Source of the DNA: Thermococcus stetteri
GTDB taxonomy: Archaea > Methanobacteriota_B > Thermococci > Thermococcales > Thermococcaceae
DNA: 64,000 nucleotides
Direction: 5' to 3'
Assembly (NCBI RefSeq): GCF_017873335.1
Contig: NZ_JAGGKB010000001.1
Location: 434,001 to 498,000 of the forward strand
The notes under the pieces are model-generated. The model made no database searches, had not been told where the DNA came from, and saw nothing but the letters and a program-made list of their open reading frames with translations. Position numbers and translations under genes: made by a program. The number at the start of each line of letters is the position of its first letter. Position 1 is the stretch's first letter. Shown piece after piece: positions 4,326 to 30,435 of the stretch.

Positions 4326-5879
4326 ATGAAGAAAAACGCATTAGTGTTGGTAATTGCTTCCCTAATCATCATGTTGCTGGTCGGAGGAGTGTTGATTGTT
4401 CACACTCCTAACGGGAAAGACCCAAGCTCTGAGGATGTTAGGGTCTACGTAATGCTCCTTGAGGAGAATGCGGCCTTTGAGATGGCAGACTTCTCAATTA
4501 AGGTTGGTAACGCCCTCCTAACCGAAACCAACAGACCAGTTTTGGCATATCGGGGAAAGCCCGGGGAGATCAAACTGGATGCCCATGGCGCGACCAGAAA
4601 CTGGAATGGGATCAAGTTCAACGTAGAGGGAGGCATTATCATCAACGCTACAGAGGGAGGAAAAGACTACTTAGTGACCATTGAGGCCACTCACGAACCA
4701 GGGGTTTTCGTCTTAAAGCAAGTCCCAGAGCTGAGCGGAGTCATTGGAAAAGACGTGCCAGAAACGCTGTTCCTTGAGGATTATCCAGTAGTTGAAGAGG
4801 TAATGAGGGAAGCCGGCACCCTGGGAGAACTAGAGAGAAACCAGGAACTGCGAGATACATATTTGCGGCTATGGGGCGAGACCGGGAACTTGAACTATCT
4901 CCTCGCCTATCGGGATCTGAGCTACCATATGAAGACCCTCGCCCTCCTGAAGAAGCTCGGAAAACTGGACGCCGTTGGGGTAAAGACCTACGTAATGGAC
5001 ATGATCGCGACAGACTATTACTACAGCCGCTTTAACCGGCCAGGAAAAAAGGACATGACGCTAGTTTTTGGCAACAGCTCTCCATATTACGGAACTATCA
5101 AAGCCACTGATGGCCCAATCAAAAGCAACCTGCCCTTCGTGTATTATCCAGCACGCGGCTTCAACCTCTATCCTGTATCCGCGGTTCACTGGGCGCATAG
5201 CTACCTCCTCATGGGGAGGCGCGACCTTACTTTGGAGATACTCGATCAGCTCATGCCCTTCGTTGAGTATGGAGAATACAACGGGGAAACCTTCGCAATT
5301 CTTCCTGTGTACTTCCATTTTCAGAACGCAAGCGTCCCGTGGATTTCAGGCTACGCGCAGGGAGTGGCGGCAGGACTCTACGCCCTAGCATACAACATGA
5401 CTGGAAACGCGAGCTACCTCACCATCGCAAAGCTCTTTCTGAACTCCTTTGATCTTCCGCTCACTGAGAACGGGTTTGTAATCGAGACAAAGTACGGGAT
5501 ATGGTACCTCGAGTACAACTACTACCCAGACCAGCTCGTTCTGAACGGGGACATAATAACGCTCCAAGGCCTCTACTATTACTGGGAGGTAACGGGGGAC
5601 GAGAAAGCCCACGAGCTTTTCGTCAAAGGCGTCGAAAGCGTCAAAAAGGCGCTTCCCGACTTCGACACCGGGAACTGGAGCAGGTACGCGAGCATATACA
5701 ACTCATCGAGTGAGTTCTACCACAGGCTCCACATAAGGCTCCTCCTGTGGCTCTACGCAAAAACTGGTGACGAGACCTTCCTTGAGTATGCGGAGAAGTG
5801 GAACGGCTACCTTGCCGAGAGGGGACTAAAAAAAGAGGACATAGGAAAACTACTCCAGGAGATGAGGAATTCTCCTTAG
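4326..5879 (+). CDS. Membrane-anchored D-glucuronyl C5-epimerase-like protein
   Basis: About 517 residues. An N-terminal hydrophobic segment (residues 3-22) acts as an anchor, followed by a 120-residue beta-rich extracellular region. The C-terminal 300 residues resemble the alpha/alpha-barrel C-terminal domain of D-glucuronyl C5-epimerases, with WISGYAQGVAAGLYA, the GNWSRYA segment and FYHRLHIRLLLWLY. Such domains act on polysaccharide chains, so a role in surface glycans is plausible, but the substrate is unknown. I chose ATG 4326 after a GTGGT site; a TTG lies 15 bases upstream. Its last 30 bases overlap the convergent transporter gene. Confidence 0.65.
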   Translation: MKKNALVLVIASLIIMLLVGGVLIVHTPNGKDPSSEDVRVYVMLLEENAAFEMADFSIKVGNALLTETNRPVLAYRGKPGEIKLDAHGATRNWNGIKFNVEGGIIINATEGGKDYLVTIEATHEPGVFVLKQVPELSGVIGKDVPETLFLEDYPVVEEVMREAGTLGELERNQELRDTYLRLWGETGNLNYLLAYRDLSYHMKTLALLKKLGKLDAVGVKTYVMDMIATDYYYSRFNRPGKKDMTLVFGNSSPYYGTIKATDGPIKSNLPFVYYPARGFNLYPVSAVHWAHSYLLMGRRDLTLEILDQLMPFVEYGEYNGETFAILPVYFHFQNASVPWISGYAQGVAAGLYALAYNMTGNASYLTIAKLFLNSFDLPLTENGFVIETKYGIWYLEYNYYPDQLVLNGDIITLQGLYYYWEVTGDEKAHELFVKGVESVKKALPDFDTGNWSRYASIYNSSSEFYHRLHIRLLLWLYAKTGDETFLEYAEKWNGYLAERGLKKEDIGKLLQEMRNSP

Positions 5880-6434
5880 CACCGGTACGGTTACCAGAAG
5901 GCTGATGAAGACGTCTATAAAAGTCTGAATTGCGTTGGGGAGGGTTATTGCAAACCAGAAGGGGACACCCGTCCAGTTCTCCACGGCAGATATCACCTGC
6001 TCCCGCGGAAGACTCAACCAGATTGGGAGCGCCACGTAGTAGTTGAGGGCCACCATTAGGGGTGCTCTGACAAGAATTCCAATGACGTACGCCACCACTC
6101 CAAACAGTGCGAGCTTCTTCTTGCTAGAGTAGTCAACTCCAACTGTCCTCACTGCAACCTCCAGGCCCACGAGAACTCCAAACGTCGCCAGGGTCTTCAT
6201 CATGGCACCGAGCCAGCTCGCGGAGGACACAACGCTCAGACCGAGGAAGAGCATGGCAAGGGCCGTCAGTCCACCCCAGAAGCCGAGGATAAAGTACGCC
6301 ACGACGATCGGGACTGCTACCAGGTCTATCTTCATGCCCCAAACCGTCGGCATCTCAACCGGCATTACATCCAAAGCCAGCGCTAAGGCCAGCATGAGTC
6401 CGATGATGGCAATTTCCCTTGAACTGATTTTCAT
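5850..6434 (-). CDS. ECF transporter S component (vitamin uptake, substrate unknown)
   Basis: About 194 residues with five or six hydrophobic helices. The opening EIAIIGLMLALALALDVMP and the DLVAVPIVVAYFILGFWGG segment are typical of S components of energy-coupling factor transporters, which bind a vitamin in the membrane and dock with a shared energising module. The overall look is RibU/BioY-like, but residues cannot settle the ligand. ATG 6434 follows GGTGGTGG. A 6-bp dyad lies just upstream (6445-6460). No ATPase or T component is nearby, so it must borrow one. Confidence 0.7.
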   Translation of the reverse strand: MKISSREIAIIGLMLALALALDVMPVEMPTVWGMKIDLVAVPIVVAYFILGFWGGLTALAMLFLGLSVVSSASWLGAMMKTLATFGVLVGLEVAVRTVGVDYSSKKKLALFGVVAYVIGILVRAPLMVALNYYVALPIWLSLPREQVISAVENWTGVPFWFAITLPNAIQTFIDVFISLLVTVPVLRRIPHLLE

Positions 6435-6444
6435 CTCCACCACC

Positions 6445-6460
6445 GTTACAAGTTTGTAAC
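6445..6460 (-). promoter_or_regulatory. Inverted repeat before the S-component gene
   Basis: GTTACA-AGTT-TGTAAC is a perfect 6-bp dyad ending about 10 bases before ATG 6434, next to the ribosome site. Its position in a short divergent gap suits an operator, perhaps for a vitamin-sensing repressor. The regulator is unknown. Confidence 0.4.
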
Positions 6461-6529
6461 CAATTTTTTAAATTTTTGCTCCATATCTGGAACAATCTCC
6501 TTATAAGGCGCCCGGGCAACCTAGTGGGG

Positions 6530-7333
6530 ATGGACATCAGGGAGATAGCAGAACTGGTAAGGGAGATAAGGAGAAAACACGGCCTTCCTGAGAGCCCCTT
6601 CAGGATAGATGAAATTCGGTACGATGAAAAAAACGACAAGCTCTTCATAATTGCACACGACAGGACGGACAAGAGCGTCATTATCGGCAACAGTCTGGTA
6701 ATAGGAAAGCTCAGGGAGAGGCTAGGAGTCAGACAGGTGACTGTCTATTCAAACCTCGACCTTGAAATAAAGCGCAGAAAACTGGAATTGGCAGAAAAGT
6801 CCGTAGAGGGGACGGTACTTGACTTCCTCCTCCCCATAATCGAGGCCGAGAAAAGGTTCCCACCGAGGGAATGGCCAGAAGTCGTGGGGAACATTGAAAC
6901 ACTCGTATTCCTCAGCTTCAACGCGAGGGCCATGCTCGGCTTCGCCGAGAGGCTCGGGCTTCCATACAGAGCCGTTGGGTTGAAGTACACATTTCCCAGA
7001 GTCAAATATGAGGAAATCGAAGGAGAGCCGAAGGATCTGTTCTTTCCCGACGGGGAAGAACTACTCAAAATTGCCAAAGAGAATGGAGAAGGGTTAATTC
7101 TGGCCGATTTCCCATTCGGGTTAAAGTGGGAGAGCGGAATAGCACTCCTGAACCCTTTCAGGTTCCTCCACATTGGCTTCTTCGAACTGAAGTACCTGTT
7201 CGGATTCGAGTGGCCCACCATAGTGGATAAAAACGCCCTCGTTGACTTCGTCGTCGGGCTGACATACGAGGGCCTCATGGAGTCAACGGATGGTGCAAAC
7301 TTAATATGGCGTGCCTGGAGGCGGAGAAGATGA
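6530..7333 (+). CDS. Conserved hypothetical protein, coupled to a kinase-like gene
   Basis: About 267 residues, soluble, with no motif I recognise. The N-terminal 60 residues look like a small alpha/beta domain (DKLFIIAHDRTDKSVIIG). The middle has a hydrophobic strand then a helix (LVFLSFNARAMLGFAERLG), which could be a nucleotide-binding fold, but no P-loop is seen. I chose ATG 6530 because TATA-like TTATAAG at 6501 leaves only a short leader and the earlier residues look untranslated. Its stop overlaps the next gene's start as ATGA, so the two are likely to work together. Confidence 0.65.
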   Translation: MDIREIAELVREIRRKHGLPESPFRIDEIRYDEKNDKLFIIAHDRTDKSVIIGNSLVIGKLRERLGVRQVTVYSNLDLEIKRRKLELAEKSVEGTVLDFLLPIIEAEKRFPPREWPEVVGNIETLVFLSFNARAMLGFAERLGLPYRAVGLKYTFPRVKYEEIEGEPKDLFFPDGEELLKIAKENGEGLILADFPFGLKWESGIALLNPFRFLHIGFFELKYLFGFEWPTIVDKNALVDFVVGLTYEGLMESTDGANLIWRAWRRRR

Positions 7334-7891
7334 TAATAGGCGTCGTTGGGAAGATAGCCGCCGGAAAGACGACAGTTGCGAAGTTCTTCGAGGAGAAAGG
7401 CTTCTGCAGGGTCTCGTGCAGCGACCCTCTGATAGACCTGCTCACCCACAATGTTTCCGACTACTCCTGGATTCCCGAACTGCCCGAAAAGGCCGAGCCA
7501 ACACGCGATAAACTCATCGAGTTCGGAAAGTCCCTGAAGGACAAGTACGGCGGAGACATCCTCATCCGTCTGGCAGTTGACAAGAAGAGGCACTGCAAAA
7601 ACATCGTTATTGACGGAGTTCGCTCAAGGGAAGAGGTCGAGGCGATCAAGGGGCTCGGTGGAAAGGTCATCTACGTGGAGGCAAGGCCGGAGATAAGGTA
7701 CAAGAGGCTGATGAAAAGAAGGGCAGAGAAGGATAAGGTCATCCAGAGCTTTGAGGACTTCCTAAAAATGGACGGGGAGGAAGAGAAGCTGTACCACACG
7801 ACGAAGCTCAAGGAGATAGCCGACTACGTTATAGCCAACGAAGGCACACTGGAGGAGCTGAGAGAGAAGGTAGAAAAAATAGCGGAAGAGC

Positions 7892-22705: not shown

Positions 22706-23986
22706 TTAAACAATCTTCGCGTGAACTTTGACCCTTGGGGCAATGAACGAGGATATCCTTCTCAGGTCCTTCCCAGGCTCCACTGTTTTCAGTAGATCAA
22801 AGATGTTGCCAACGAGCATGTTGTCCTTGAACGGAGTAACCTCCCCGTTCTTGACCACGTAGCCAAGACCAACTGGAAGCGAGAAGTCACCGCTGACAGG
22901 ATTGGCCGTGTGTTCACCGAAGACTTCCTTGACTACGATCCCCTCAAAATCCCCAAGGCTCTCATCTCCTGGCTCCACTACGAGGTTGCTCGGCCCAATT
23001 GATGGAGTTGTCCTGAAGCTCCGGACGGCGTTTCCGGTGCTCTTCAGTCCAAGGAGGGAGGCATAGGTGTGGTCGAGGAGGAAGCCCTTGAGCGTCCCAT
23101 TTTCTACGAGCGGTGTTCTCTGTCCGGGAGTGCCCTCACCGTCGAACGGATAGCTCCCCGGAAGGCCTTCGAGTGTTGAATCGTCCAGGAGGGTAAAACC
23201 TTCCGAAGCTACCCGATCCCCGAGGCTGGAAAACCTGCTCCTGCCGTAGTAAACTTCATCGCCGTAGAAGTTCTCCAAGAGGATCTCCACAATGGACATT
23301 ACGGCCTCAGGCTCCAGCACGAGTTCCCCATTGTAGGGTTCAAACTTCTTCGCCCTGGCGCTGAGCTCTGCATCTTTTTTTGCCTTCATTATGGCCTTCT
23401 CAAGGGCTTCGATACCCTGAAGGGAGCGGTAGCCCTGGTAGAACGAACCGTTTCCAGGTCCCTCCTCTATGACCGCGTAGGCTGAGACCCCCATGTACGT
23501 GGAAGAGGCCTCAAGCTCAACTCCGTTGGAGTTCACAACACCATACCTTTCAAAGGCCAGGGAGATTGAACCTGAGAGGGTCTCTTTTTCCTTAAGCTCC
23601 TTCATTTTCTCAGTGTACTGGAGCGCAAGGGCGTGGGCATCTTCGAAGGGAATTTCCTCGATCCTCCTGTCGTATATTCCTTTAACCTTGGGAACTTTAG
23701 AGGGAACCGGGAAACCTCTAAAGGGAACTTCGCTAACCCTCGCGAGCTTTATCGTCCGCTCTACGAACTTTTCAAGCTCAGAGGTCGAGTGATTGAGGCC
23801 AGTTACGTATGAGAAACCGAGCTTTCCCTTCAGCCCCACCCTGAGGCCGATGCCCGAGTAGAACTTCCTCTGGGAGCGCTCGAGAGCTTCCCGCTCTATT
23901 TTGAAAGAACCGCTCCTCCCGCTCTCCCAGTAGATCTCCCATTCAACGTCTTCTCTCTCGAGGATTCTGACGAGTTCTTCTATCAT
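22706..23986 (-). CDS. TldE/PmbA-type metalloprotease subunit
   Basis: About 426 residues of the TldD/PmbA family. It lacks HExxxH, as expected of the TldE/PmbA partner; the C-terminal half has GLPGSYPFDGEGTPGQ, the SIGPSNLVVEPGD segment and HTANPVSGDFSLPVG. TldD and TldE form a complex that degrades or trims unfolded peptides inside the cell. ATG 23986 follows GGTGGG; the longer open frame upstream is not coding. A ferritin-like gene lies between it and the TldD gene. Confidence 0.88.
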   Translation of the reverse strand: MIEELVRILEREDVEWEIYWESGRSGSFKIEREALERSQRKFYSGIGLRVGLKGKLGFSYVTGLNHSTSELEKFVERTIKLARVSEVPFRGFPVPSKVPKVKGIYDRRIEEIPFEDAHALALQYTEKMKELKEKETLSGSISLAFERYGVVNSNGVELEASSTYMGVSAYAVIEEGPGNGSFYQGYRSLQGIEALEKAIMKAKKDAELSARAKKFEPYNGELVLEPEAVMSIVEILLENFYGDEVYYGRSRFSSLGDRVASEGFTLLDDSTLEGLPGSYPFDGEGTPGQRTPLVENGTLKGFLLDHTYASLLGLKSTGNAVRSFRTTPSIGPSNLVVEPGDESLGDFEGIVVKEVFGEHTANPVSGDFSLPVGLGYVVKNGEVTPFKDNMLVGNIFDLLKTVEPGKDLRRISSFIAPRVKVHAKIV

Positions 23987-24029
23987 CCCACCACCGGAGA
24001 AGCTTTGGGATGGAAAGGGTATAAAAGTG

Positions 24030-24479
24030 CTACGAACCTGAGGAAAGGAACTCATAGACCTCCAGAAGGTGTTTGTAAGTCTCCTCCTTGATCCCTGCCA
24101 GCTCCTCAAAGAGGAGGCGGATTTTTTCGTCACCGACCATCCGGGCCAGCTTCATGTAGAGGGTCTTTCCAAGGGCTTCTGAGAGGAGGGCAAGACTCAG
24201 GGCTTCTTCCTCGCTCTTAGCCTTCATCATCTCACTGCAGACGGGAAGGACGTCGAGAGGAGGAGCATTGAACTTTATAGGCTCCCTGTTGGGATAGAGC
24301 TTCGAGAAGAGCTCCCTCATCCTCAGGGCGTGCTTCTTCTTTTCGGCCGCGAGCCTGCGGAACTCCTCGGAGGCCTCACCCTCAAGCCTTTCAGAGAGCC
24401 ACTCGTAAATCTCAGCGGCGCACTCCTCATTGCATATGGCGTAGCTCAGAAGCTCGTAGCCGTTTAGGTTCTTCAGCAT
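24030..24479 (-). CDS. Ferritin/rubrerythrin-like four-helix protein
   Basis: 149 residues, nearly all helix. Glutamates and histidines occur at ferritin-like spacings: NEECAAEIYEWLSE, AAEKKKHALRMREL, SEALGKTLYMKLAR and LFEELAGIKEETYKHLLEVY. These fit a di-iron site as in rubrerythrin, though no rubredoxin domain is present. It may handle peroxide or iron. A 14-codon open frame with a strong GGTGGT site ends over this start codon, so the N-terminus is uncertain (see findings). Confidence 0.65.
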   Translation of the reverse strand: MLKNLNGYELLSYAICNEECAAEIYEWLSERLEGEASEEFRRLAAEKKKHALRMRELFSKLYPNREPIKFNAPPLDVLPVCSEMMKAKSEEEALSLALLSEALGKTLYMKLARMVGDEKIRLLFEELAGIKEETYKHLLEVYEFLSSGS

Positions 24480-24517
24480 AATCCGACGTCCCTGATTATG
24501 TCGACGTCTATGGGCAT
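24473..24517 (-). other. 14-codon upstream open frame overlapping the ferritin-like start
   Basis: ATG 24517 lies 4 bases after GGTGGT and reads MPIDVDIIRDVGLC then TGA at 24473-24475; the ATG of the ferritin-like gene (24477-24479) is inside it in another frame. Either it is a short leader frame, or the original N-terminus before a one-base shift. Confidence 0.35.
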
Positions 24518-24568
24518 GACAACCACCAATAAAAAATTAGAACACCGGCATATATATGCCTTGGCCTT

Positions 24569-25936
24569 CTATCTTAGGCCTCCCACAAGGGCCCTCGTGA
24601 GTATGTGGGGACCGCCATCGTCAACAGGAACGGACTGCCCCTTGCCGCAGTACCCGGGGAACTCGATTCTGACGTCCTTTCCAATGGCGCGGATATTTTT
24701 GAGGACGTCTAGGATTTTCCCAGAGAGGGCAACGTCGCGCACCATCTCTTTAGGCTCGCCGTTCTCGATTATGTAGCCCTCCCTCGCCCCAAACGTGAAG
24801 GTTCCGTTGGCGGTATCCACCTGTCCACCCTTGTCGCCTATCATGTAGAGGCCGTACTTGACCTCCTCGAGCATCTCATCGAAAGACCAGTCGCCGGCCT
24901 CGACGTAGGTGTTGCCCATCCTCACAAGCGGCTGGTGGGCGTAGCTCTGCGCCCTGCCATGGCCGTTCGGCTCAAGGCCAAAGTACTCAGCGGTCTCGCG
25001 GTCGTTGAGGTAGTTCACTAGAACGCCGTCGCGAATAACCTCCACTCTCCTCCCTTTTATACCCTCGTCATCGTAGATGTAGGAACCGAACTTGCCCGGA
25101 AGGGTAGGGTCATCCACAACAGTAAGGCCATCAACCGCTATCTTCTCCCCAAGCCTTCCGGCTAAGATGCTGTCTCCGTTCTTTACCAGGTCTGCCTCGA
25201 CCGCATGTCCAAGGGCCTCGTGGATGAAGAGGCCCGTAAGTTCGGGGTCGGCTATCACCGGAAGCTCACCGGAAGGTGGAGAACCTGCCCTCAGAAGGGC
25301 ATTAGCCTTCTCAACTACGAGAGAAGTCCAGTGGGACAGGTCAATACCCTCAACCATCTCCCAGCCGAGAGTTCCTCCGAAGCTCTTCCAGTACTGCTGC
25401 ATTTCCCCGTTCCCCTTCGCCGTTACGGAGAACCCAAAGCGTATCCTCGGAACAACGGTTCTTATTTCACTCCCGAGGGAGTTGAAATAGACAGTCTCGA
25501 CAAGGATATCGTGGTAAGAGACGTTCCTGTTCACGATCTTTTCACCGGTGAGCATGGAATCGGTCTCTTTCACAAGGGCAACCTTGTCCTCGATGTTTAC
25601 CTCGGAGAAGGGCTTTTTCACGGGCATTTCGGCTTCATCCACAACGGGATCGCCAGTGTATATCTTTGAGTCTCCCCGAGAGAGCTTGGCTATCTTCATG
25701 GCGGTCTCGATAGCCTTCTCAAACCTTCCCCGGTCGTTTGCACTTGAAAAGCCCCACGCACCGTTGAAGGCCCTCGCACCTATCCCGGTCTCGGAGTTAC
25801 TGGAGAGCCCTCTAAGCTGGCCGTTGCTCATGGATACTTCTGTCATGATAACCCGTGAGATCCTGATTTCATAATAACCGACACCGTGCTTTCTCGCCAG
25901 CTCTTCGGCAGTCCTCATGAGGCTCTCAACTTCCAT
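24569..25936 (-). CDS. tldD: TldD-type zinc metalloprotease
   Basis: 455 residues. FIHEALGHAVEADLV holds the zinc motif HExxxH, and GNTYVEAGDWSFDEML, GKFGSYIYDDEGIKGR and FTFGAREGYIIENGEP are the usual TldD blocks. With TldE it makes a compartment that opens only to unfolded chains. A one-subunit gap (the ferritin-like gene) separates the pair, which should be one transcript starting near 25.95 kb. Confidence 0.92.
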   Translation of the reverse strand: MEVESLMRTAEELARKHGVGYYEIRISRVIMTEVSMSNGQLRGLSSNSETGIGARAFNGAWGFSSANDRGRFEKAIETAMKIAKLSRGDSKIYTGDPVVDEAEMPVKKPFSEVNIEDKVALVKETDSMLTGEKIVNRNVSYHDILVETVYFNSLGSEIRTVVPRIRFGFSVTAKGNGEMQQYWKSFGGTLGWEMVEGIDLSHWTSLVVEKANALLRAGSPPSGELPVIADPELTGLFIHEALGHAVEADLVKNGDSILAGRLGEKIAVDGLTVVDDPTLPGKFGSYIYDDEGIKGRRVEVIRDGVLVNYLNDRETAEYFGLEPNGHGRAQSYAHQPLVRMGNTYVEAGDWSFDEMLEEVKYGLYMIGDKGGQVDTANGTFTFGAREGYIIENGEPKEMVRDVALSGKILDVLKNIRAIGKDVRIEFPGYCGKGQSVPVDDGGPHILTRALVGGLR

Positions 25937-26043
25937 CTCATCCCACCCAGAGGCAGTCTGGGGCTGGGTTTATATCATTTTGCCAGCCTAAAAACCGAAG
26001 AGTTTATAGTGGGAAAGACGGGCAAACATTCCAGGTGGTGGCT

Positions 26044-27975
26044 ATGAAACGAGCATTATCGATCTTGCTGGCACTGTTCCTCCTGGCATCGTTCTTAAAT
26101 CCAGTGAAGGCTCAGTGCCCCTCAGAGGGGAACACCGTCGTTCTAAAGGCGCCAGCCGTCTCAAAAACCCCCGATGGACGGCTCGTTGGTGTCGCCACGG
26201 ACTTCGTGATAACAGTCGCCCCTGGTAGCGGGCACGTTTACGTTGAGACCTGGCCCCTCTCCGAGGTGGACATGCAAGCAAGTGCGAGATTGGCAGCACA
26301 GATAGCTGGAAAGGTGACCGGCAAGGACATGAGCAAGTACGACGTCTTCATACAGGTCAAAACGGACACGCCGATCATAGGCGGTCCATCGGCAGGAGGA
26401 ACAATGACAGTGGGTATAATCGCCGCCCTCATGGGTTGGAAAGTAAACCCAAAGGTGATGATGACTGGAATGATCAACCCCGACGGGACGATAGGCCCCG
26501 TCGGAGGAATCCTTGAGAAGGCTTCAGCGGCCGCTTCGGTCGGAGCGAAGCTTTTCCTCATCCCCCAGGGCCAGCGGATCCAGGTCATCCAAGAGACCCA
26601 GCAGAAGACCATAGGTGGAATAGTGCAGATTGTACAGACAAAGAGCGAGAAGGTTGATGTCGTCGAATACGCAAAGGAGCGCTGGGGCCTTGAGGTTAAG
26701 GAGGTAAGCGACATATATGAGGCCGTCTACTACTTCACCGGGCACATGCTCCCCAAGCCGAAGGCACCCGCCAACGTCATCATAGACACCTCCTTCCTCA
26801 AGGACGACGCCGTCAAGGACTACCAGAACACCACGGCATACTACGAGAGCGTTAAGGAGAAGCTCAAAAAGAGCAACGTTGACTACTCAACCTACACAGT
26901 CCTCAAAGAGGCCCTGGACCAGGCCAAAGCTATACTGGACGACTCAAAGGAGGCCCTAGATTCAGGGATGTACTACACCGCCCTCAGCAAGGACTTCCAG
27001 GCGAGGATCGTCCTGAGGCACATTGACTGGTACATAAGCGTTGAGAGCCCAGAAGACGTTTCAAACCTTCTGACGGAGGTGAACTCCTACATAAACCAGA
27101 CAGAAAGCCTCGTATCGTCCATGGAGATAAAGGGCATGACGATGCTCCAAGCGGTTGCCGCCGCCGAAGAGAGGGTAGAGGACGCCAAGGAGAGCCTTCA
27201 GGAGGGCTGGAAGTACTACTACAGCGCCGACTACTGGAACGCCATCGACAGGGCAGCCTACGCATATGAGAGGGCACAGACCGCACGCTTCTGGGCCAAA
27301 CTTGGTGAGAGGTTCGCAAAGGGTGAGACCATAGACAGGGAGGAGCTCAAAGAAACGGCGAGAAACTACATAGACGAGTCGAGCCTCATAGTGACCTACA
27401 TCGAGTCCATGTACGGAAACGTCATAGGGAACGATCTCATGGACACAATCCAGAAGGCTGAGCAGTACTACGGAGATGGGAAGTACTCAGCGGCGATCTT
27501 CACTGCCATGGAAGCCAGGGTTCGCGGTGAGGTGTTCCTGGACACCATGGGCATAGACAACGAGACCATTCTGAGGGAGAAGCTCCAGGAGATGAAGGAG
27601 GCCGCGAAGACCGCCATAGGGATAGCGCAGACGAACGGACTCCACCCGCTACTCTCAATAGCTTACTACGAGTTCGCAGAGAGCTACGAGAAGGGCAACA
27701 CAACGGACGATCTTGTGAACGCTATGATCTTCTACCAGTACGCGAGGGAGAGCGCCGGCGTGTTCCTGATAAAGGTGAACGAAAGCACGCCAAGCGTTCC
27801 GAGCAACGAAACGGCTATACCAACGCTGCCAGTGGATACGAACACAAACGGCGGAAGCACATCCACTCCGAGCACAACATCCACGACAGTTCCAAGCTCG
27901 GGAATAAAGTCGGTGTGTGGCCCGGCTTTCATCCTAGCCCTTGCTCTTGTCCCGCTCCTGAGGAGGCGTAGGTGA
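26044..27975 (+). CDS. Secreted Lon-like (S16) protease with CGP-CTERM tail
   Basis: 643 residues. A signal peptide ends near PVKAQ. An S16 domain follows: Ser116 in IIGGPSAGGT and Lys159 in VGGILEKASAA, 43 residues apart, the same spacing as the Ser-Lys pair of E. coli Lon. No ATPase domain is present. The next 350 residues are helical and Tyr-rich with tetratricopeptide-like periodicity (YYSADYWNAIDRAAYAYERA). A Thr/Ser linker leads to CGPAFILALALVPLLRRRR, a CGP-CTERM. It is therefore a surface protease, ATP-independent. ATG 26044 follows GGTGGT. Its end overlaps the next minus-strand gene by 47 bases. Confidence 0.85.
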   Translation: MKRALSILLALFLLASFLNPVKAQCPSEGNTVVLKAPAVSKTPDGRLVGVATDFVITVAPGSGHVYVETWPLSEVDMQASARLAAQIAGKVTGKDMSKYDVFIQVKTDTPIIGGPSAGGTMTVGIIAALMGWKVNPKVMMTGMINPDGTIGPVGGILEKASAAASVGAKLFLIPQGQRIQVIQETQQKTIGGIVQIVQTKSEKVDVVEYAKERWGLEVKEVSDIYEAVYYFTGHMLPKPKAPANVIIDTSFLKDDAVKDYQNTTAYYESVKEKLKKSNVDYSTYTVLKEALDQAKAILDDSKEALDSGMYYTALSKDFQARIVLRHIDWYISVESPEDVSNLLTEVNSYINQTESLVSSMEIKGMTMLQAVAAAEERVEDAKESLQEGWKYYYSADYWNAIDRAAYAYERAQTARFWAKLGERFAKGETIDREELKETARNYIDESSLIVTYIESMYGNVIGNDLMDTIQKAEQYYGDGKYSAAIFTAMEARVRGEVFLDTMGIDNETILREKLQEMKEAAKTAIGIAQTNGLHPLLSIAYYEFAESYEKGNTTDDLVNAMIFYQYARESAGVFLIKVNESTPSVPSNETAIPTLPVDTNTNGGSTSTPSTTSTTVPSSGIKSVCGPAFILALALVPLLRRRR

Positions 27976-29236
27976 GCGGGAGGTCTTTGACCCCTCTTCT
28001 TTTTAGCAGTTCAACCTCCCATTCTGCGAGGCTTGGACAGATGGTACACCCAAGCCTGTAGAAACCCTCGTAGTAGAGCGGATGGAGGTCAAAGCCCCTC
28101 ATAAGGATGAAGAGCTGAACCATCATCCCGCTCCAGAACTTTATGGGCATGACCTCCAGGATTGGGCCGAAGTCCGTTTTTCTCTCGATTACGGGCGGTT
28201 TTAAGCGCCTTCTGGCACTCTCCCCATCGCGGTCGCCAACAACTAAAAGGGGGTTCTCAAACTCGCCGACTGCATTGTAAAGGGCCTCGACTTTCATTTT
28301 GGTGCACCAGCGGTTTCTATGTGTCGGCATACCGAACTTATCTATCGGCATCGGGACGTCTACCCTGATCAGGTCGATCCCCAGCTTTTTGGCGAGTCTC
28401 TCAACGTATTCCTCCGTCTCCGGCATGTCGTACTCCATCCTGACGTAGACCGCACTGACCTTTCCAAAGGCCTCTCTAGCAAGTATAAGGGCCGCCGTAG
28501 AGTCCTTCCCACCGCTCCACGGCACAGCTATGTCGTATCCTTCAAACTTTCTCAGGAACTCCTTGCTGGCGTTTGCAAAGGCCCCGATGTAGTCTCTGTT
28601 GGCGGCTATCAATTCATCAAGGGAAACATCCTCCGTGCAGGGACACCTCCAGAGAACCTCGGTCGGAAATCCGAGCTTTTTACTCACTTCTGCAACTTTG
28701 TTGGGACCAGAGAAGTAGACCTCCTGGTTCATCAGCTTCCTGAGAACAAGGGAGTTCTCGCCAAGGTCAACATCAAGAAGGGACTTCATCGCCCTTCTAA
28801 AACCATCGCCAATAGCCAGATAGATGTCGTAGTCCGGGTGTATTTCAATCCCAAAAGGGTTCTCCGGGTTGAGGAAGTAGGCATTTTTCCACTCGATTCC
28901 AAGCCTGAAGCGGGCCTTTATGTCCTCGAGGTGAGCGTACAGCTCATCAACGCGCATGTTGCGGACCTTCTTTGTCCTCAGAAGCCTCGCGTAGAAGGGC
29001 CTTCCGCTCTCCCTCACGACCTCTAGGATGTCCTCCATCAGGGCCTTTTCCTTCTCCCCGAAGAGGAATATCGGGATGTAAGGTTCTCCAAGGACCTTGC
29101 TAAGGCCCTCTTCTACTTCCTCAAAGCTCCTCCCTCCGCCGAGGCTTTTAACCTCGAGGAAGCCACCGTAGTTGCGTTCGTTTATGTACTGGAGGGCCTT
29201 TGCGTCCTTTCTGGCTCTTGCGACGACCGTGAACAT
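27929..29236 (-). CDS. PAPS-reductase-family protein with cysteine clusters
   Basis: About 435 residues. The centre has a PP-loop ATP pyrophosphatase site, VPWSGGKDSTAAL, and the following YVRMEYDMPETEEYVERL as in PAPS reductase/sulfotransferase proteins. Cysteines occur in CPCTED, NRWCTKMK and GCTICPS, enough for an iron-sulfur cluster. Archaeal members are often tied to sulfur transfer or RNA thiolation; the substrate is unknown. The ATG at 29236 has no ribosome site and a TATA about 30 bases upstream, so the mRNA may be leaderless. Confidence 0.78.
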   Translation of the reverse strand: MFTVVARARKDAKALQYINERNYGGFLEVKSLGGGRSFEEVEEGLSKVLGEPYIPIFLFGEKEKALMEDILEVVRESGRPFYARLLRTKKVRNMRVDELYAHLEDIKARFRLGIEWKNAYFLNPENPFGIEIHPDYDIYLAIGDGFRRAMKSLLDVDLGENSLVLRKLMNQEVYFSGPNKVAEVSKKLGFPTEVLWRCPCTEDVSLDELIAANRDYIGAFANASKEFLRKFEGYDIAVPWSGGKDSTAALILAREAFGKVSAVYVRMEYDMPETEEYVERLAKKLGIDLIRVDVPMPIDKFGMPTHRNRWCTKMKVEALYNAVGEFENPLLVVGDRDGESARRRLKPPVIERKTDFGPILEVMPIKFWSGMMVQLFILMRGFDLHPLYYEGFYRLGCTICPSLAEWEVELLKRRGVKDLPLTYASSGAGQEQGLG

Positions 29237-29316
29237 GGTCGGGTTTAAAAGTGGAGAACTTAAAAGAGTTTGGCCGATGAGGAGAACTCCCTGCCCCGAG
29301 CGGTGAGGAGACCGGC

Positions 29317-30435
29317 TTACCTGAGGCCCACCAACGCTCTTAGGAAGCTCAGGTATATTTCCTTGACCCTCCTGAGGGAAGAGATACTGACCCACTCGTC
29401 GGCGGAGTGCCAGTTGCCCCCAATTGGTCCAAAGACGAGCGTCGGTTTGTCCAGGTAGGTTCCGAAGTAGTTGAAGTCCCCAACGCTCGCTCCGTAGGTA
29501 ATCTCAACCTCCCTGCCTCCAACTTCTCTGTACGTCTCCTTAAACCGCCTGACGAACCTGTTGTTTTCCTTCACAACGTATGGGAGCATCTCAGGGGTTG
29601 GGCGCTTGTATTTTTCTACATCAAGCTCTGCCCTTACTTCTACCCTTTCCGCAAGCCTGTAAAGTTCTCCTTTAACCTTCTCCCAGTCCTCGCCAACAAC
29701 GATGTGCCTGTCAATTATTGCAACCGCTTCGTCTGGCACGCTCAGTCCGTCAGCGGATCCAGAGAGGTGCAACGTACAGTAGGAACCTACCCCAAGCTTC
29801 GGGTGCTTCTTCATCCGTATCCTGCGGAGGTTTGAGACGAGTTTGGCAAGCTCTTCGACGGCATTGATTCCGAGGTAAGGTCTAGCCGCGTGGGCCTTCC
29901 TTCCCTTCGCTCTCACCTCGATTACGAACCTCCCCCTGGCACCGAGCATTAGCTTCTCGTTGGTGGGCTCTCCAACGAGAACGAGATCAGCTTTTTTGAG
30001 CTTGCCGCTCTTTATAAGCTCCCATGCCCCCCTCGAGAACCCCTCTTCATCACTGACGGCCGTAAAAATGAGGTTGGGTCTTTCCTTCCTAGGAAACTCC
30101 GAAAGCTCAAGGAAGGCGCTTAGGAGCGCTGCCAGCCCACCTTTCATGTCGGCACTCCCGAGTCCGTAGAACTTATCACCCTCAAGCTCGCCCCACGGGT
30201 TCCGTGTCCACCCCTGAGATAGATGCACCGTGTCCATGTGCCCGTTTAAAACAACTGTCGGGCCCTTACCGTCAAAATAGGCAACCACATCATCGCCAAA
30301 GCCTTCAACGGGAATTGTCTCTGTTTTTATTCCGCCCTCCTCAAGGAGTGAAGCCACAAACTTCGAAATCTCATGCTCCCCCCCAAAGGGGGACTTTATT
30401 GAGACCAGCCGTTTTAGGAGTTCAAACTCGTCCAT
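29317..30435 (-). CDS. M20 family metallopeptidase / deacylase (ArgE/DapE type)
   Basis: 372 residues. Metal ligands are visible in NGHMDTVH, GSADMKGGLAAL, VSDEEGFSRG (general base Glu) and VLVGEPTN, with late His in GGNWHSADEW. The dimerisation domain between carries AHAARPYLG. The family hydrolyses amide bonds of acylated amino acids or small peptides; ArgE/DapE/LysK-like enzymes look alike, and no lys or arg genes flank it, so the substrate stays open. Confidence 0.85.
   Translation of the reverse strand: MDEFELLKRLVSIKSPFGGEHEISKFVASLLEEGGIKTETIPVEGFGDDVVAYFDGKGPTVVLNGHMDTVHLSQGWTRNPWGELEGDKFYGLGSADMKGGLAALLSAFLELSEFPRKERPNLIFTAVSDEEGFSRGAWELIKSGKLKKADLVLVGEPTNEKLMLGARGRFVIEVRAKGRKAHAARPYLGINAVEELAKLVSNLRRIRMKKHPKLGVGSYCTLHLSGSADGLSVPDEAVAIIDRHIVVGEDWEKVKGELYRLAERVEVRAELDVEKYKRPTPEMLPYVVKENNRFVRRFKETYREVGGREVEITYGASVGDFNYFGTYLDKPTLVFGPIGGNWHSADEWVSISSLRRVKEIYLSFLRALVGLR

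Follow-up and report, generated by a model that had tools for sequence, protein, structure and literature searches.

A predicted membrane-tethered S16 (Lon-type) protease without an ATPase domain in Thermococcus stetteri and other archaea

The gene and its surroundings

The window analysed here, a stretch of 64,000 nucleotides from Thermococcus stetteri (contig NZ_JAGGKB010000001.1, positions 434,001 to 498,000 of the forward strand), contains an open reading frame for a protein of 643 amino acids that extends on the plus strand from the ATG at 26044 to 27975, stop codon included, exactly as delimited in the initial annotation. Read from the N-terminus, a signal peptide is followed by an S16 proteolytic domain, a domain of twelve helices, a linker rich in Ser and Thr, and a CGP-CTERM tail (Table 1). 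The full-length AlphaFold2 model has a mean pLDDT of 82 and a pTM of 0.76. When the gene was compared with its nearest relative, dN/dS was lowest in the S16 part (0.014), higher in the helical part (0.037) and highest in the linker (0.157). The gene is under strong purifying selection, and the linker evolves faster than the S16 and helical domains. The protein possesses only two cysteines, Cys25 (26116-26118), just past the signal peptide, and Cys625 (27916-27918) in the CGP tail.

Table 1 Features of the protease gene in the window
Feature	Position	Strand	Basis or remark
Putative ribosome-binding site AGGTGG	26033..26038	+	By eye; 5 bases 5' of ATG 26044
Signal peptide, about aa 1-24	26044..26115	+	Hydropathy; low pLDDT around aa 19-26; no cleavage-site tool used
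S16 proteolytic domain, aa 30-236	26131..26751	+	Pfam match, alignment to Lon motifs, model, fold match
Ser116 codon, motif IIGGPSAGG	26389..26391	+	Kept in 121/121 relatives
Lys159 codon, motif INPDGTIGPVGGILEK	26518..26520	+	Kept in 121/121 relatives
Beta-hairpin insertion, aa 179-205	26578..26658	+	Model and alignment
12-helix domain, aa 243-575	26770..27768	+	Conservation in 52 sequences and domain model
Disordered Ser/Thr/Pro-rich linker, aa 576-622	27769..27909	+	pLDDT about 30; composition
CGP-CTERM tail, aa 624-643: CGP 625-627, hydrophobic stretch, Arg-rich end	27913..27972	+	TIGR04288

TldD- and TldE-like genes lie upstream on the opposite strand (22706-25936), with a rubrerythrin-like gene among them (24030-24479), and an M20-type peptidase gene is also found nearby. 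Downstream, a PAPS-reductase-like gene on the minus strand (27929-29395) converges with the protease gene such that their 3' ends overlap by 47 bases.

The S16 domain and its catalytic dyad

The Pfam model Lon_C (PF05362) matches residues 77-181 with 48 bits (E 1.5e-12, cut-off 21.1 bits) and recognizes all 23 aligned relatives at E <= 0.01. The predicted domain superimposes on E. coli Lon (1rr9) with a Z-score of 22.9 and an rmsd of 2.4 over 176 residues. Ser116 and Lys159 align with the Lon motifs and are separated by 42 residues, the spacing ascribed to Lon subfamilies A and B in the relevant passage of PMC9569914. By its PF05362 score and its Ser-Lys spacing the protein is classified among the S16 (Lon) proteases. 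Ser116 is preceded by Pro115, as in LonA-type centres.

For comparison, 143 open reading frames of the family were reduced to 121 distinct sequences by removal of duplicates, a split gene (L062), a fragment (L102) and a second copy of the window protein (L001), which was replaced by the window protein itself (P0001). Ser and Lys are invariant in all 121, as are Asp76, Asn145, Asp147, Pro174 and Gln177, and the IGGPSAG and GPVGGIxEK surroundings of the dyad are largely conserved. A Walker A motif occurs in none of the 121, and a Pfam search of the window protein revealed no match to an ATPase domain. The initial annotation had proposed a Ser116/Lys159 dyad at Lon spacing and the lack of an ATPase, both of which are borne out by these results. 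The hairpin of residues 179-205 is common to many long and short archaeal relatives, is shortened in some (e.g. L050 and L100), and is absent from the LonA, LonB, LonBA and SepM sequences in the alignment.

The helical domain

The long helical region noted in the initial annotation resolves into twelve helices that span residues 250-572. Modelled alone (residues 243-575, 52 sequences), the domain attains a pLDDT of 93.6 and a pTM of 0.90. Y311, R377, R410, W417, Y452 and P535 (numbering of the window protein) are invariant in the 52 sequences. Profile search, Foldseek and VIA did not identify a credible match in the PDB: the profile retrieved nothing below E 0.27 from the PDB sequences, the best Foldseek hit had an E of 0.22, and the best VIA hit, EzrA (Z 9.7, 88 residues), is below the telling level of that tool for helical bundles. 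DUF357 was dismissed for the window protein, where it scores below the Pfam cut-off, and DUF357, HEPN and others were dismissed as the helical fold since their matches are weak and occur in a minority of relatives.

Membrane tethering

The CGP-CTERM model TIGR04288 matches residues 624-643 with 28.8 bits (E 1e-6, cut-off 21), which together with the hydropathy of the N-terminus upholds the previously proposed signal peptide and CGP-CTERM tail. However, CGP cannot be the key feature of the family, since only 20 of the 121 relatives carry it; in most of the others the chain ends with a plain transmembrane helix. In Thermococci devoid of CGP the C-terminus consists of a plain membrane helix and a short basic tail, and many members from Thermoplasmata have longer C-terminal tails. 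Hydrophobic segments at both the N- and the C-terminus with none between them were found in 116 of the 121 relatives, as opposed to 9 of 596 neighbouring open reading frames of 200 amino acids or more that served as background. Both terminal segments, regardless of what lies between, are present in 119 relatives (117 under an earlier, different threshold). The predicted tether is thus constant across the relatives and its type is not. Variation of the anchor with conservation of the remainder is to be expected if tethering is what counts. As judged from this two-ended topology, the protein would be exported and tethered, in agreement with the initial description of a surface-anchored Lon-type protease that lacks an ATPase.

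In 13 of the 121 relatives (Thermoplasmata, L122-L142; 14 with a looser pattern) the last 20 residues of the predicted cytosolic tail contain an end resembling PRSIxDYYKKxK. No such motif was seen in 1019 neighbouring open reading frames. It is possibly a docking or retention signal.

Distribution among archaea

At E 0.001 some match is found in all 61 genomes of the host's taxonomic family, a count that includes LonB and CGP tails; the protease itself is present in 56 of the 61. In one of the 56, a near-complete genome of the same genus (G034), the gene falls into two overlapping frames (L062, G034:C1:2146000-2158000, 5408-7359) owing to a frameshift or sequencing error in that genome. With the threshold at E 1e-14, the gene is found in 106 of the 115 genomes from the host phylum and in 83 of the 84 that are of good quality. 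The sole good-quality exception, G030, belongs to the same genus, is near complete and is negative with the profile as well. Lack of the gene in G030 and its splitting in G034 imply that the protease is not essential everywhere.

A scan of genome contigs yielded 224 confirmed loci, of which the best 80 are in Thermococci, Methanofastidiosia, Theionarchaea, Methanocaldococcus, Thermoplasmatota, Aenigmatarchaeota, Methanoperedens and a few others. Further phyla were searched with a profile of 23 sequences at E 1e-30. The methanococcal phylum gave matches in 31 of 36 genomes, the Methanoperedens phylum (which we take to be Halobacteriota) in 85 of 196, the phylum to which a Thermoplasmatales bin belongs in 44 of 145, and that of the 'Deltaproteobacteria' bin L132 in 1 of 99. 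Presence in bacteria was discounted, since the one match in this last phylum lies on a 5-kb contig and is probably misbinned. The architecture is widespread in several archaeal phyla and is not a local oddity.

Clustering of the genes adjacent to the 143 loci, for many of which the flanking sequence extends for only about 1.5 kb, did not reveal a conserved partner across lineages. The commonest neighbour clusters hardly occur outside Thermococci, or outside one deeper lineage each. The idea that an operon partner might indicate the substrate was therefore given up, the commonest neighbours not being kept in deeper lineages, although with short flanks this is a weak test.

Short forms and phylogeny

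Among the 85 matching genomes of the Methanoperedens phylum, the match extends beyond profile position 500 in 35 and is confined to the S16 part in 50. The 18 short-form loci that were inspected all lack the helical domain, and in each of the 18 a hydrophobic segment precedes the S16 domain. One of them, L195, carries a lipobox-like sequence, and L199 (2767-3501), a haloarchaeal plasmid protein annotated as 'S16 family serine protease', has a twin-arginine-like start. The occurrence of such varied predicted export signals before one type of protease points to work outside the membrane. L199 keeps the Lys region and deviates in the Ser region; it may be inactive or rely on a different motif. 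Encoding of the helical domain by a separate gene was considered and rejected: in 20 genomes searched with a profile of the domain, it was present in the three long-form genomes, inside the protease gene, and a single weak, partial match (E 1.1e-4) came from the 17 short-form genomes.

In a tree built on 99 columns from 61 S16 core sequences, the long forms, the short forms and the SepM-type proteins are separated from LonA, LonB and LonBA with a bootstrap of 100. An earlier tree of 57 domains showed the same split. L199, RadA, LonC and BrxL were not included in the trees, and the SepM-type protein L208 was dropped because it lacks the Ser motif. Neither the long nor the short forms are monophyletic, and the order within their side of the tree is not resolved. 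One SepM sequence with a very long branch fell among the long forms in the 57-domain tree, and five SepM-type sequences fell among the short forms in the 61-sequence tree, with a support of 45. Given the long branches, the low support and a position that differs between the trees, the exact placement of SepM was disregarded and only the split with a bootstrap of 100 was used.

Comparison with known S16 proteases

SepM and YlbL (NF041438) share with the window protein the S16 domain, an IGGPSAG-like motif, the lack of an ATPase, a membrane segment, a location outside the cytoplasm (predicted for the window protein) and the side of the tree. They differ in having an N-terminal anchor and a PDZ domain in place of a signal peptide, a 12-helix domain and a C-terminal anchor. 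The NF041438 model gives 34 bits with the window protein, far from its cut-off of 200, and a PDZ domain, which was found in SepM L202 as a control, has no match in the window protein.

Archaeal LonB has the same S16 fold and the same Ser-Lys spacing. LonB of T. onnurineus (3k1j) superimposes on the S16 model with a Z-score of 21.4 over 179 residues, and the best matches among PDB sequences are to LonB of A. fulgidus (1z0e). However, LonB contains an AAA+ module with a membrane anchor and has Asp before the Ser, as stated in the passages of PMC9569914 on this subfamily, whereas the window protein has no AAA+ match and has Pro115 in that position; TIGR00764 scores 56.9 bits against a cut-off of 516.6. 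The source genome also encodes a LonB of its own, so that the cytosolic role is filled. Neither an AAA+ nor an N-terminal LON domain as in LonA was detected, and the LonA models match the S16 part only, far below cut-off.

LonC of Meiothermus taiwanensis has no ATPase activity and degrades unfolded protein, according to the parts of PMC3391209 that deal with it, and resembles the window protein in having no working ATPase. Unlike the window protein, LonC is soluble and cytoplasmic (as described in PMC9569914) and has a non-functional AAA-like region before S16; in the window protein only the signal peptide precedes S16, and the additional domain follows it and is purely helical. The short archaeal forms (e.g. 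L180, L184 and L187) have the same type of S16 domain, most of them with the hairpin, and by hydropathy are exported or membrane-bound, but they lack the helical domain and have an N-terminal anchor or signal only.

An S16 protease without an ATPase outside the membrane, which the initial annotation took to be exceptional, has precedents. Passages of PMC6051672 describe YlbL of Bacillus as an S16 and PDZ protein devoid of an ATPase that is likely extracellular, and LonC-type proteases need no ATP to degrade unfolded protein (PMC3391209, in part). Extracytoplasmic S16 proteases without an ATPase are already known in bacteria, and the archaeal architecture is a further variant. It is possible, though we advance it tentatively, that the long forms, the short forms and SepM/YlbL constitute one ancient extracytoplasmic lineage apart from the AAA+ Lons, to which the motor was never joined or from which it was lost early, and that in many archaea a previously undescribed helical domain stands in for the motor and feeds substrate without ATP to the Lon-type active site, resulting in a general envelope protease.

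Proposed function

In the model that we consider fairly probable, the protein is a tethered S16 protease that works without ATP on the external side of the cytoplasmic membrane and cuts polypeptides that are already unfolded or flexible. It would be exported by the Sec system and held by the CGP-CTERM segment, or by the plain transmembrane helix in most relatives, with the disordered linker as a stalk. Candidate substrates are misfolded exported proteins, left-over pieces, and the disordered regions of surface proteins. The 12-helix domain would be the companion of the S16 domain and assume the role of the AAA+ motor in LonA and LonB, though placed after S16 and not before it; it probably recruits or gates the substrate, or holds an oligomer together. 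YlbL from which the membrane segment had been removed was inactive in vitro after purification (PMC6051672, in the passage on the assay), so that activity of the archaeal protease is not to be assumed.

The protein could instead be a dedicated processing enzyme in the manner of SepM and YlbL, with defined cleavage sites in a few exported precursors or membrane regulators, or in just one. These closest extracytoplasmic relatives have set targets, YlbL interacting in the membrane with full-length YneA (PMC6051672, same source passages), and the conserved helical domain, with its low dN/dS and its invariant Tyr, Arg and Trp residues, is what a specific docking surface would require. Arguing against such an enzyme is the lack of a conserved neighbour or fixed substrate gene over the lineages, along with a spread so wide that the substrate would have to be common to all; we regard it as somewhat doubtful. 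Retention of the S16 fold for binding only, in a proteolytically silent scaffold, is far less probable still. RadA and BrxL, S16-fold proteins with other roles, are among the fold matches, and non-peptidase homologues are mentioned in PMC9569914 (in the portion consulted), but Ser and Lys are kept in every relative over several phyla, and the surrounding motifs largely so.

The initial annotation had connected the enzyme with feeding, in which case it would break down environmental protein or peptides for uptake. Thermococcales use peptides, and the TldD/TldE-like and M20-type peptidase genes nearby would fit such a function. However, the protease is also present in most genomes of the methanococcal phylum, in Methanofastidiosia and in Methanoperedens, methanogens and methane oxidisers that do not live on peptides, and by hydropathy it is tethered rather than shed. 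These observations weaken the proposal and make a feeding enzyme unlikely. The tethered protease for unfolded or flexible polypeptides remains our preferred model.

Relation to the literature

To our knowledge, the removal of misfolded protein on the far side of the archaeal membrane, where ATP is lacking, is poorly understood. This widespread and strongly conserved family is a concrete candidate for that task. It also offers a natural test of Lon-type proteolysis without a motor, and its helical domain, which lacks a credible match in the PDB, is modelled with confidence.

No bench study of the archaeal family was found in the open-access literature, most subscription papers being outside the search, nor was any paper on COG1750, which we take to be the name of the family. 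The T. onnurineus proteome paper PMC4463584 did not yield a passage on the family in the portions available, and those of the T. kodakarensis paper PMC4870337 contain passages on CGP-CTERM and none on the protease. The passages of PMC2605481 on PF05362, which do not comment on the location of the protein, report two PF05362 proteins each in Thermococcus kodakarensis and Pyrococcus furiosus, one of which is presumably the orthologue of the window protease.
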